A stretch of DNA of 64,000 nucleotides from contig NZ_JAFEWE010000015.1 of the NCBI RefSeq assembly GCF_017355785.1, positions 1-64,000 on the forward strand. The letters run 5' to 3'. The notes under the pieces are model-generated. The model was not told where the DNA came from. It was given only the letters and a program-made list of their open reading frames with translations, and did no database searches. Positions within the stretch are counted from its first letter, which is position 1. Each line of letters starts with the position of its first letter. Below are positions 20,020 through 23,728 of the stretch, piece by piece. Both the position numbers and the translations under genes were made by a program. The DNA comes from Desertivirga arenae. GTDB lineage: Bacteria > Bacteroidota > Bacteroidia > Sphingobacteriales > Sphingobacteriaceae.

Positions 20020-20838
20020 ATGAATTTAGAAGGAAACATCGCAATACTTGGAAGCGGAAACATGGGTTTAGCTTTCGCTGATGGTTTAGTAAAATCAAAG
20101 ACTTATAAATCATCCCAAATAACTTTAACTCGCAGGAGCATCGAAAACCTGTCTGTTCAGAAACTCCAGGGATACTCAACTACCACTAACAATTATGAAG
20201 CAGTCGCAAACGCTTCAATTATTGTTCTGGCCGTACTTCCACAACAATTGAATGCACTTTTGGCAGAAATCAAAGACGCCATAGATGTTAAAAAGCATTT
20301 AATTATCTCAGTTGTAACTGGAGTTGCATGTAAAGATATTAAAACTCACCTTTCTGATGACATACAGGTAGTTCGCGCTATGCCTAACACGGCGATATCC
20401 ATAGGACAATCCATGACCTGTATAACTACCGATAATGCGGCTCAGGGTAATGTAGATCTGACAAAGCAACTTTTTGAAACAGTTGGCTCTGTAGTTCAGA
20501 TAAATGAAGAATTGATGTCTTCAGCTACAGCTTTATGTGCAAGTGGAATCGCGTTCTTTTTAAGATCGATCAGGGCAGCATCCCAGGGTGGAGTTGAAAT
20601 CGGCTTTCATGCAGAAGACGCTCTTAAAATGGCCGTGCAAACAGCGAAAGGTGCTGCCGACTTATTACTGGCCCATGGATCGCATCCTGAACATGAAATT
20701 GACAAGGTAACGTCCCCGAAAGGCTGTACAATTGCGGGACTAAATGAAATGGAACATAATGGCTTTAGCGCTGCATTAATTAAGGGTATTAAACTAGCCT
20801 CAGTTAAAGCTGCCGGACTATATAAGGATACCAACTAA
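20020..20838 (+). CDS. proC: Pyrroline-5-carboxylate reductase
   Basis: A 272-residue ProC reducing pyrroline-5-carboxylate to proline. The NAD(P)-binding IAILGSGNMGLAFADGLVK is at the N-terminus, VVRAMPNTAISIGQSMT follows near residue 118, and the C-terminal block VTSPKGCTIAGLNEME is typical. I chose the ATG at 20020, one base after the argB stop, over an in-frame ATG at 19984 inside argB. Its TAA overlaps the argE ATG. A proline gene inside the arginine operon suggests shared control of the two glutamate-derived pathways, since ornithine can feed proline. Confidence 0.93.
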   Translation: MNLEGNIAILGSGNMGLAFADGLVKSKTYKSSQITLTRRSIENLSVQKLQGYSTTTNNYEAVANASIIVLAVLPQQLNALLAEIKDAIDVKKHLIISVVTGVACKDIKTHLSDDIQVVRAMPNTAISIGQSMTCITTDNAAQGNVDLTKQLFETVGSVVQINEELMSSATALCASGIAFFLRSIRAASQGGVEIGFHAEDALKMAVQTAKGAADLLLAHGSHPEHEIDKVTSPKGCTIAGLNEMEHNGFSAALIKGIKLASVKAAGLYKDTN

Positions 20839-21896
20839 TGTCAAAGCAATTCGCTGAAGATAGCATTGGCCTTTTAAGGACGTTGATCGCAATTCCATCT
20901 TTTTCGCGAGAAGAAGATAAAACGGCAGACGCTATTGCAGATTTTTTTCAAAGAAGCGGCCTGGAACCTAATAGACAGGGAAATAATATCTGGGCTTTTA
21001 ATAAATACTACGATCCTGCCCAACCCACTATCCTGTTAAATTCTCACCACGATACTGTAAAGCCAAACGCTGGTTATAGCAGGGATCCTTTCTCTGCGGA
21101 TATAGAAGACGGCAAACTATACGGCTTGGGAAGTAATGATGCAGGGGGATGCCTTGTGTCACTTATTGCAACCTTCCGGCATTTCTACCATCAGGAAAAC
21201 CTGAAATATAACTTGTGTATGGCTGCTACGGCAGAAGAAGAGGTTTCTGGAAAGAATGGGATTGAAGCTCTCGTGCCTGCGCTTGGCCCTTTAGATTTTG
21301 CCATCGTGGGCGAACCTACCTTGATGGACCTCGCTATTGCAGAAAGAGGCTTAATCGTTCTGGACTGCGTGGCAAATGGAAAGGCAGGACACGCTGCAAG
21401 AGAAGAAGGTGAAAACGCTATATACAAGGCATTAAAAGACATCGAGTGGTTCAGAACTTATAAGTTTCCAAAAGAATCAGAATTATTCGGGCCAACAAAA
21501 ATGTCGGTTACAGTAATTAATGCCGGTTCTCAACACAATGTAGTGCCAGCACAATGCACATTTACAGTAGATGTCCGCGTAACGGATGCTTATCGGAATG
21601 AAGAAGTTGTTGAGATAGTAAAACGGCATGTTTCATGTGATGTTACCCCTCGCTCAACTCGCTTAAAGCCTTCTTCAATAAGCAAGGATCATCCATTTGT
21701 ACAAGCCGGTTTGGCTTTGGGAAGGAAAACATATGGATCGCCCACAACAAGTGATCAGGCTTTACTGGATATCACCTCTGTAAAGATAGGTCCAGGTGAC
21801 AGCGCCAGATCTCATTCAGCTGATGAATTTATTTACGTAAACGAAATCTATGAAGGGGTGGAGCTTTATATAAAGATGCTGGAAAAACTTATTTGA
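20838..21896 (+). CDS. argE: N-acylornithine/N-acylcitrulline deacylase, M20 family
   Basis: A 352-residue M20 metallopeptidase acting as ArgE. Zinc ligands are visible: H in LNSHHDTVKPN, D in GSNDAGGCL, E pair in ATAEEEVSGKNG, and E in VGEPTLMDLAI; the dimerisation domain follows (GKAGHAAREEGENAI), and the late His in GDSARSHSADEFI. With an ArgF'-type pathway its substrate is N-acylcitrulline rather than N-acylornithine. Translation is coupled to proC (TAATG). It is the last gene before the inserted four-helix-bundle cassette; its stop lies only 8 bp before the left repeat. Confidence 0.92.
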   Translation: MSKQFAEDSIGLLRTLIAIPSFSREEDKTADAIADFFQRSGLEPNRQGNNIWAFNKYYDPAQPTILLNSHHDTVKPNAGYSRDPFSADIEDGKLYGLGSNDAGGCLVSLIATFRHFYHQENLKYNLCMAATAEEEVSGKNGIEALVPALGPLDFAIVGEPTLMDLAIAERGLIVLDCVANGKAGHAAREEGENAIYKALKDIEWFRTYKFPKESELFGPTKMSVTVINAGSQHNVVPAQCTFTVDVRVTDAYRNEEVVEIVKRHVSCDVTPRSTRLKPSSISKDHPFVQAGLALGRKTYGSPTTSDQALLDITSVKIGPGDSARSHSADEFIYVNEIYEGVELYIKMLEKLI

Positions 21897-21904
21897 TTTA
21901 CGAA

Positions 21905-21924
21905 TTACGATTTTAGATTTACGA
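21905..21924. repeat. Left arm of perfect 20-bp inverted repeat
   Basis: TTACGATTTTAGATTTACGA, an exact reverse complement of 22371-22390. It is preceded by a related ATTTACGAA, so the arm contains internal ACGA-spaced repeats. Together the arms bound a 486-bp segment holding only the four-helix-bundle gene. Confidence 0.95.
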
Positions 21925-22003
21925 TTCCTAGAAATTTCACCAATTTGCATACCGAAATACTAACAAAATTAGTAAGTCACAATCACTATATAGCAAATCT
22001 CCG

Positions 22004-22369
22004 ATGGATAAAGAAATACTAAAGAAACGAACAAAAGCTTTTTCTATAGAAATAGCTCATTTAGTACAATCTTTACCTTTTAATATCATTAACAAGGATT
22101 ATTCAAATCAAATCATACGCTGTTCTAGTTCTGTAGGAGCTAATTACAGAGCGGCATGCAGGGCGAAATCAAAGGCAGATTTCATTAATAAGCTAAAGAT
22201 CGTTGAAGAGGAACTAGACGAAAGCATGTTCTTTCTTGAACTTTTAGTCGAATTCAATCAGGATCAAAAGACAACAATTATTAAAACCTGGAAGGAAGCT
22301 AACGAACTTCTTTCTATCATTGTATCTTCAATTACAACACTGCGGAAGGCAATGGCAAGTCAATCGTAA
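22004..22369 (+). CDS. Four-helix-bundle protein (23S rRNA intervening-sequence protein family)
   Basis: A 121-residue all-helical protein of the family once named 'S23 ribosomal protein' and known from ORFs inside 23S rRNA intervening sequences; it is also related to the Avd accessory protein of diversity-generating retroelements. Recognised by IIRCSSSVGANYRAACRAKSKADFINKLKIVEEELDES-type order (conserved SSSVGANY, RA, SKADF, EEExDES blocks) and by its length. Its molecular role is unknown. It interrupts the arginine operon between argE and argH and is enclosed by a perfect 20-bp inverted repeat whose right arm begins one base after the stop, which suggests a small mobile or once-mobile cassette. 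Confidence 0.9.
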   Translation: MDKEILKKRTKAFSIEIAHLVQSLPFNIINKDYSNQIIRCSSSVGANYRAACRAKSKADFINKLKIVEEELDESMFFLELLVEFNQDQKTTIIKTWKEANELLSIIVSSITTLRKAMASQS

Positions 22370-22370
22370 C

Positions 22371-22390
22371 TCGTAAATCTAAAATCGTAA
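22371..22390. repeat. Right arm of perfect 20-bp inverted repeat
   Basis: TCGTAAATCTAAAATCGTAA, exact reverse complement of 21905-21924. It sits between the four-helix-bundle stop codon and the argH ATG (6 bp away), so in mRNA the two arms could close a hairpin that encloses the whole cassette and lies against the argH start. Confidence 0.95.
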
Positions 22391-22396
22391 ATCCAA

Positions 22397-23728
22397 ATGA
22401 AGCTTTGGCAAAAAGATAAACAGGTAGAAAAATCAGTAGAAACATTCACTGTTGGAAGAGACAGGGAGCTTGATGCAGAGATGGCTGCGTTTGACGTGCT
22501 GGGATCTCTTGCTCATACCCGTATGCTCGAAAGCATAAACCTACTTAGCAAAGAAGACTTACTTGCAGTTCAGAAAGAACTAAAAAATATCTATAAAGAA
22601 ATTGAAGCCGGGGAGTTTGTGATTGAAGATGGAGTAGAAGATGTTCACTCTCAGGTAGAGCTATTACTTACGCAACGGATAGGCGAAGCCGGTAAAAAGA
22701 TCCATAGCGGACGCTCACGCAATGACCAGGTGCTGGTTGATCTAAAACTGTATTTCAGAAGTCAGATTCAGCGCACTGTAGAGAACACCGAGGTTCTTTT
22801 TAAGCAACTAATCTCTCTTAGCGAAGAACACAAGGAAAAATTGCTTCCTGGTTATACGCACCTTCAAATTGCCATGCCCTCCTCCTTTGGCCTATGGTTT
22901 GGAGCATATGCAGAAAGTCTGGTTGATGATCTGGAACTGATGCTGGCTGCATGGAAGGTTTGCAATAAAAATCCTCTTGGTTCAGCAGCTGGTTACGGAT
23001 CTTCTTTTCCTTTAAACCGGACCATGACTACTCAGTTGCTCGGTTTCGAAGCATTGAATTATAATGTGGTTTATGCCCAGATGGGAAGAGGAAAAACGGA
23101 GCGTATCCTTGCTCAGGCAATGTCATCCATCGCTGCAACCTTAGCCAAGTTCTCCATGGACATCACCCTGTTCATTAATCAAAATTTTGGCTTTATCAGT
23201 TTTCCTGATGAGCTGACTACCGGTTCGAGCATTATGCCTCATAAAAAGAACCCTGATGTTTTTGAACTAATGCGTTCCCGCTGTAATAAAATACAAGCAT
23301 TACCGAATGAAATTGCTTTGATGACCACCAACCTTCCTTCTGGTTATCACCGCGATCTGCAATTGCTAAAGGAAAATCTATTCCCCGCTTTTCAGTCGCT
23401 AAATGAATGTCTCGAAATGGCTGCCTTCATGTTGCAGAATATTACAGTTAAAGATGGCATACTAAAGGATGAGAAATATTTGTACCTATTCAGTGTGGAG
23501 GCTGTAAATGAAGAAGTGTTAAAAGGAATGCCTTTCAGAGAAGCCTATAAAAAGGTAGGATATGAAATTGAAAAAGGTGAATTCAAAGCTCCTGAAAAAG
23601 TAGCGCATACGCATGAAGGAAGCCTGGGCAATCTTTGCAATACTCAGATCAAAGACTTATTCAATCATACGCTAAAAAACTTCAACTTCTCAAAGGTTGA
23701 AACTGCTATTCAAGAGTTACTGAAATAG
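22397..23728 (+). CDS. argH: Argininosuccinate lyase
   Basis: A 443-residue ArgH splitting argininosuccinate into arginine and fumarate. Blocks: ESINLLSKEDL, EDVHSQVELLLTQRIGEAG, KIHSGRSRNDQVLVDLKLYFR, LLPGYTHLQIAMPSSFGLW, and the superfamily signature GSSIMPHKKNPDVFELMR with catalytic Ser near residue 277. Normal length. It closes the arginine operon and is followed by a terminator. Its start lies 6 bp after the cassette's right repeat. Confidence 0.96.
   Translation: MKLWQKDKQVEKSVETFTVGRDRELDAEMAAFDVLGSLAHTRMLESINLLSKEDLLAVQKELKNIYKEIEAGEFVIEDGVEDVHSQVELLLTQRIGEAGKKIHSGRSRNDQVLVDLKLYFRSQIQRTVENTEVLFKQLISLSEEHKEKLLPGYTHLQIAMPSSFGLWFGAYAESLVDDLELMLAAWKVCNKNPLGSAAGYGSSFPLNRTMTTQLLGFEALNYNVVYAQMGRGKTERILAQAMSSIAATLAKFSMDITLFINQNFGFISFPDELTTGSSIMPHKKNPDVFELMRSRCNKIQALPNEIALMTTNLPSGYHRDLQLLKENLFPAFQSLNECLEMAAFMLQNITVKDGILKDEKYLYLFSVEAVNEEVLKGMPFREAYKKVGYEIEKGEFKAPEKVAHTHEGSLGNLCNTQIKDLFNHTLKNFNFSKVETAIQELLK

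Follow-up and report, generated by a model that had tools for sequence, protein, structure and literature searches.

The S23 cassette between argE and argH

In the window, the whole 64-kb stretch of Desertivirga arenae DNA analysed here, a small gene bounded by inverted arms separates two host genes that lie outside the cassette, an upstream ORF (20838-21896, + strand) that we take to be argE from an earlier note on this DNA and from sequence knowledge, and the downstream ORF argH (22397-23728, + strand), whose homologues in relatives are 55-92% identical. The cassette comprises a left arm (21892-21926, + strand), a leader that runs from this arm to the start codon of the small gene (21927-22003, + strand), the S23 or four-helix-bundle gene itself (22004-22369, + strand), which has the same direction as argE and argH, and a right arm (22362-22396, - strand), an inverted copy of the left array that extends to the argH start codon. 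The earlier note had described a perfect 20-bp inverted repeat, and TTACGATTTTAGATTTACGA is found exactly at 21905-21924 (+) and 22371-22390 (-), the right copy beginning 1 base past the ORF's stop codon and ending 6 bases before argH (22397), as that note had placed it. This repeat is the core of longer arms, which span 35 nt each and are 80% complementary. The left arm is an array of a degenerate 7-bp unit (GATTTAC, GAATTAC, GATTTTA, GATTTAC and a final GATT), the first unit of which overlaps the argE stop codon (21894-21896). Chance as the source of the inverted repeat was excluded by a search of the 64-kb window, in which TTACGATTTTAGATTTACGA has no third match at up to 3 mismatches, by 100 dinucleotide shuffles, none of which yielded a match, and by the arm scores of 88 S23 loci that are described below.

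The identification of a four-helix-bundle gene also stood, since the 121-aa product (predicted pI 8.9) passes the cut-offs of both PF05635 (E 6.8e-13, 49.2 bits, cut-off 33.8) and TIGR02436 (E 1.4e-20, 73.5, cut-off 24). By the ORF list and profile search this PF05635 protein is the sole gene of the cassette, so it is correct that no transposase is present; neither a RAYT (Y1 transposase) gene nor any other enzyme is encoded. No target-site duplication is visible in comparisons with empty sites that came from diverged relatives. RNA structure prediction for the element yields a fold with both arms paired (MFE -111.8 kcal/mol, z -3.8), a model that agrees with the earlier suggestion that the repeats pair.

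The S23 protein

To our knowledge, S23 ORFs have for decades been regarded as passengers of rRNA intervening sequences, and we know of no established function for them or account of how they move. S23 proteins are basic (median pI 8.9), as is the Avd accessory protein of diversity-generating retroelements, which has a related fold; among solved structures, 2rld alone is a clear relative of the S23 protein of the window. At orthologous sites the dN/dS of S23 is 0.04-0.08 at argE-argH, mreB-mreC and argC-argD and 0.19 at fadB-fadA, figures that are rough since synonymous sites are close to saturation (the names argC-argD, fadB-fadA and mreB-mreC are presumptive, as they come from sequence knowledge and not from a family search). 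S23 ORFs are therefore clearly under strong purifying selection. The combination of such selection with long residence at argC-argD, fadB-fadA and mreB-mreC suggests that many S23 copies have been domesticated.

The argE-argH junction in relatives

The gap between argE and argH is 500 bp in the window and 21 bp in a relative whose ArgH is 92% identical (G012) and in which the insert is absent, so the earlier estimate that the gap would otherwise measure about 15 bp was a fair one. The same note had proposed that argE-argH junctions be compared, and empty, decayed and occupied sites were all found among relatives. For example, one genome of the same genus (G002) holds an S23 fragment with the right arm only, and another relative (G015) contains an S23 gene with an in-frame stop, yet its arms are long and well matched. 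Other genomes have different contents at this position, including a two-gene insert accompanied by a heptamer remnant in a second member of the genus (G001, L043), an array remnant lacking S23 (G003, L048) and a heptamer array, (GATGTGA)n with about six units, that fills the junction without S23 (G006, L057). Therefore, this junction is polymorphic, being occupied, decaying or empty in different relatives.

The small two-gene pair found at this junction in G001 is also present there in G014 (L052), where it is flanked by GTCATTGCGAGGTACGAAGCAATC-type inverted repeats; the pair looks to us like DUF433 plus DUF5615.

Inverted arms at S23 loci across bacterial phyla

PF05635 was found in 240 of 301 genomes of the host family, with 1 to 15 copies each among the matches listed, and in 193 of 247 genomes sampled across the phylum. 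To score arms, the 200 bp preceding an S23 gene were aligned locally with the reverse complement of the 200 bp following it, and the best match was taken. By this measure, 88 non-redundant host-family loci had a median arm score of 17, compared with 8 for a sliding-window null, and inverted arms exceeded the 99th percentile of the null at 86% of them, a fraction that fell to 19% when the direct orientation was scored and to 11% when loci were mispaired. Inverted arms were also significant (p<=0.01) at 50 of 79 named loci found with the window protein as the query, which include Patescibacteria, Nitrospirota, Nitrospinota, Planctomycetota, Verrucomicrobiota and Omnitrophota, and at 15 of 29 loci sampled over Bacteroidota, the cross-phylum p-values being based on 100 mononucleotide shuffles per locus. 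These figures come from local-alignment scores at loci that were in part selected by score, and shared ancestry inflates some of the counts; the arm census covers S23 loci. The window cassette is one of hundreds of S23 cassettes of about 0.5 kb that sit between cooperating genes in several phyla.

A search of the open-access literature found no earlier account in which an S23 or four-helix-bundle gene is associated with heptamer repeats or flanked by inverted repeats. The tandem heptamer structure of the arms, their onset at the stop codon, the link between array sequence and S23 clade, and the recurrence of the cassette across phyla go beyond what the earlier note had described.

Two further loci have a different architecture. 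In a member of the Kiritimatiellales (L183), an S23 gene lies within a near-perfect inverted repeat of 150 bp, which is not built of heptamers and represents an inverted duplication or an assembly artefact. The only other S23 gene in the genome of the window (L009, G000:C12:906281-906571) adjoins a long (GAATGAGT)n-type array with a 4/8-bp period, a short inverted counterpart of which lies on the far side of the gene.

Anatomy and origin of the arms

Across 118 arm pairs, the arms are non-palindromic, period-7 arrays. The best period was 7 in 88 of the 110 that were scored and 8 in a further 17, and the identity of arms at a lag of 7 was 0.65, compared with 0.31 after shuffling. On the sense strand the left arm is G-rich and C-poor, G exceeding C in 112 of 118. 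The arms are also precisely placed relative to the flanking genes, as the left arm starts a median of -1 bp from the upstream stop codon (IQR -5 to 6), lag-7 identity, about 0.3-0.45 ahead of the last base of that codon, rises to 0.7 there, and a median of 10 bp separates the end of the right arm from the next start codon; in P. rhizosphaerae, the argE stop is provided by the array itself. The proposal that the arrays act to block translation in all frames was rejected, since stops in three frames were seen in 18 of 118, compared with 19.6 in shuffles.

The sequence of the array tracks the clade of the S23 protein. Arms of the window clade are often GATTNNN-like (GATTTAC-like), even outside its phylum, as in the Candidatus Brocadia arm ATTTTAGATTTACGATTTGTG (L175).

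The two arms of a locus match each other better than they match arms swapped between genomes at the same operon site (p=0.0005 at fadB-fadA, p=0.0025 at argC-argD and p=0.0095 at argE-argH), so the arms within a locus change together. If this matching were maintained by RNA pairing, mismatches that allow G-U pairs should be enriched, and they are not (54 compatible and 75 incompatible transitions), on which ground selection on an RNA stem as the sole cause was rejected. The lack of G-U enrichment, together with the persistence of arms around the broken ORF of G015, argues that some of the matching, if not all of it, originates in the DNA. Insertion of the gene into a pre-existing array was also rejected, as it predicts direct repeats, and direct matches are much rarer than inverted ones.

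Joint change of the arms without a G-U excess is also what would be expected if nothing moved at all, slippage producing the arrays and hairpin-templated repair copying one side onto the other until a small gene became enclosed. Arrays without S23, such as those of L057 and L048 and the solo arms considered below, fit such local growth of simple sequence. We nevertheless regard this explanation as highly improbable, since it does not account for why S23 genes in particular bear arms, for the link between array type and S23 clade across phyla, or for a copy number that follows the presence of the matching S23.

Dispersed repeats and hairpins without S23

The genome of the window contains seven further places that match the 20-mer at up to 3 mismatches, compared with 0 for a reversed control. 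The earlier note had proposed a search for the repeat next to other four-helix-bundle genes; none of the six places read has an S23 gene beside it. Among genomes of the family, the 20-mer (<=2 mismatches) is present in 18 of 18 that contain a window-type S23, with a median of 11 copies, and in 65 of 233 that do not, with a median of 0 (p=4e-14), a difference that is also seen inside the two large genera. A second array type, ATTTCGG/GATGTTC, belongs to a sister S23 clade and is confined to one genus plus a single hit outside it; it is commoner in genomes of that genus that hold its own S23, a weak association (p 0.03 and 0.016). There are exceptions, since three genomes (G027, G104 and G241) are rich in repeats and have no close S23 match, so repeats can persist after S23 is lost or spread in its absence.

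The dispersed copies include hairpins that lack S23 and retain a cassette-like polarity, with 24-110 bp between the arms and a mostly intergenic location (L258, L262, L264, L265 and L266), as well as solo arms, many of which lie immediately 3' of a stop codon or 5' of a start codon. Both the lone repeats and the S23-less hairpins occur mostly in genomes with a matching S23.

Hairpins that bear cassette-type arms, repeat-rich genomes without a close S23 and the dispersed copies in the genome of the window would all be expected of a non-autonomous, MITE-like transposon, the arms of which serve as substrates for a transposase supplied in trans from another locus while S23 is a dispensable passenger. 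This reading appears quite improbable to us, as a passenger would not predict that array type tracks S23 clade even across phyla, that array copy number tracks the presence of S23, or that S23 ORFs are under purifying selection; in addition, comparison with empty sites of diverged relatives revealed no target-site duplication, and the element terminates in arrays of variable length instead of fixed ends.

Other repeats were observed in the course of this analysis. In one genome (G020) the heptamer array lies inside predicted ORFs at several places (L241, L270, L272, L280, L281, L288, L289 and L295), possibly within linkers of FecR-like genes. Another repeat of the genome of the window (L005:1352-1453, G000:C23) consists of two 48-nt direct copies that contain TCGTAGGACCGCTATCGCTTAACCTACGA, which can itself fold into a hairpin, and lies beside a solo heptamer arm.

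Operon sites, orientation and signs of movement

Where the neighbouring genes are co-directional, S23 lies in the sense direction at 71 of 73 host-family loci, 60 of 65 named loci and 26 of 27 loci from the phylum. Because operon genes share the direction of their neighbours anyway (30 of 33 window genes between co-directional neighbours do so; 71:2 versus 30:3, p=0.03), the excess over this baseline is modest, yet the ratio is far from the 50:50 that random insertion would produce.

Window-type S23 genes with the same arm type are found at argE-argH, proC-argE and mreB-mreC. Related Pedobacter species each have a single close copy (82-84% protein identity); P. rhizosphaerae carries it at argE-argH and four other species at mreB-mreC, and in the protein tree the P. 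rhizosphaerae argE-argH copy is nested in the mreBC group (99/96). Differential loss of ancestral duplicates is a possible but less simple explanation of these sites.

The arginine operon hosts S23 cassettes of different clades at argC-argD, argD-argF, proC-argE and argE-argH (L011, L017, L019, L020, L026, L103, L108 and L112).

These data also bear on the possibility that the cassette is a domesticated, immobile mRNA-processing module, in which binding of a stem by S23, or its cleavage by RNase III, determines how strongly the flanking genes are expressed relative to each other and pairing of the arms is under selection. The sense orientation of cassettes inside operons, purifying selection at orthologous sites, locus-specific matching of arms, their pairing in the predicted RNA fold and the excision of S23 intervening sequences by RNase III (PMC4990558) are all in keeping with such a function. 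Against it stand the different sites occupied in related species, the existence of empty junctions, the dispersal of repeats away from S23 loci, the lack of a G-U excess among mismatches and the intact arms of G015 around an ORF with a stop, so we consider this module unlikely.

The earlier note had read the cassette as a small mobile element, and much of this holds: gene and repeats form a unit that is present or absent at orthologous junctions and recurs elsewhere, and the repeat is dispersed. An origin of the pairing at the RNA level alone is unsupported. That note had also held that a gene without repeats in all relatives, or a repeat unique to this site, would speak against mobility; relatives carry arms and the repeat occurs at other places.

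Comparison with known systems

In the Coxiella 23S rRNA, an S23 ORF with a terminal stem is cut out by RNase III, and this intervening sequence, of about 0.43 kb with a 28-bp stem, has been proposed as a possible mobile element (PMC4990558). The cassettes resemble the 23S rRNA intervening sequences of Coxiella and Leptospira in that an S23 ORF lies in a short element with terminal inverted repeats able to form a stem. They differ in their location between protein genes (argE and argH here, and likewise at other loci) and not in a 23S rRNA gene, in having arms that are heptamer arrays beginning at a stop codon, and in a genomic setting of up to 18 S23 copies per genome with S23-less hairpins and solo arrays.

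The cassettes share with REPIN/RAYT systems (PMC3116915) a gene family tied to its own short repeats, which are dispersed singly or as inverted pairs and whose copy number tracks the matching gene. The RAYT protein is a Y1 (IS200-like) transposase whereas S23 is a four-helix bundle, and REPs are palindromic whereas the heptamer arrays are not. Intergenic direct repeats of the heptamer TAACTGA, for which translational regulation has been suggested, occur in Beggiatoaceae, Cyanobacteria and some Bacteroidetes according to the passages searched of another paper (PMC4679880). Those repeats are likewise tandem 7-bp units in gene gaps, some of which overlap the end of the upstream ORF; unlike the arms described here they are direct and not inverted, and the searched passages mention no S23 or four-helix-bundle gene. 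Terminal inverted repeats are also a feature of DNA transposons and MITEs. By protein and architecture, the closest known system is the S23 intervening sequence, minus its defining location, and the genome ecology is like that of REPIN/RAYT without the RAYT.

A model for S23 cassettes

The features observed here, namely the structure of the cassette and its wide occurrence, the link between clade and array, the differences in site, the empty sites and purifying selection, can be accommodated, with what we judge to be an even chance of being right, by a model in which an S23 gene and its own type of array travel as a pair and form an operon-dwelling element that is, or once was, mobile, a relative of the 23S rRNA intervening sequence with a REPIN/RAYT-like organisation. 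The cassette would enter a short gap between co-transcribed genes in sense orientation, with its start at the upstream stop codon, and because of this placement it would be transcribed with the operon. The basic four-helix-bundle S23 protein may recognise the array of its own clade, as DNA or as a hairpin, and such recognition could drive the spread of both cassettes and S23-less hairpins, aided by host or other enzymes that would provide a route of transposition. By analogy with 23S rRNA intervening sequences, the arms might also pair in the operon mRNA to form a stem that can be cut. Several points count against this model, namely that no enzyme is encoded, that no target-site duplication was seen in comparisons with diverged relatives, that some genomes are rich in arrays and have no close S23 match, that there are signs of domestication, that mismatches have no G-U excess and that the orientation bias is modest.

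A more far-reaching form of this model, which we consider possible if somewhat doubtful, is that S23 proteins confer specificity on an undescribed group of minimal mobile elements that lack a transposase, each S23 clade recognising its own array of 7-8-bp units. These elements would place cassettes and S23-less hairpins at the stop-start junctions of operons, and rRNA intervening sequences would be one specialised branch of them.

In summary, a standard cassette built around an S23 gene is found repeatedly in ordinary operons across many phyla, its arm sequence tracks the protein clade, and these cassettes account for one class of the intergenic heptamer repeats of Bacteroidota. Its own heptamer array, or the hairpin, is now a testable candidate substrate for S23, and the operon cassettes provide a second setting in which the question posed by intervening sequences can be addressed. 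In this way, S23 cassettes become a candidate class of mobile elements without a transposase.
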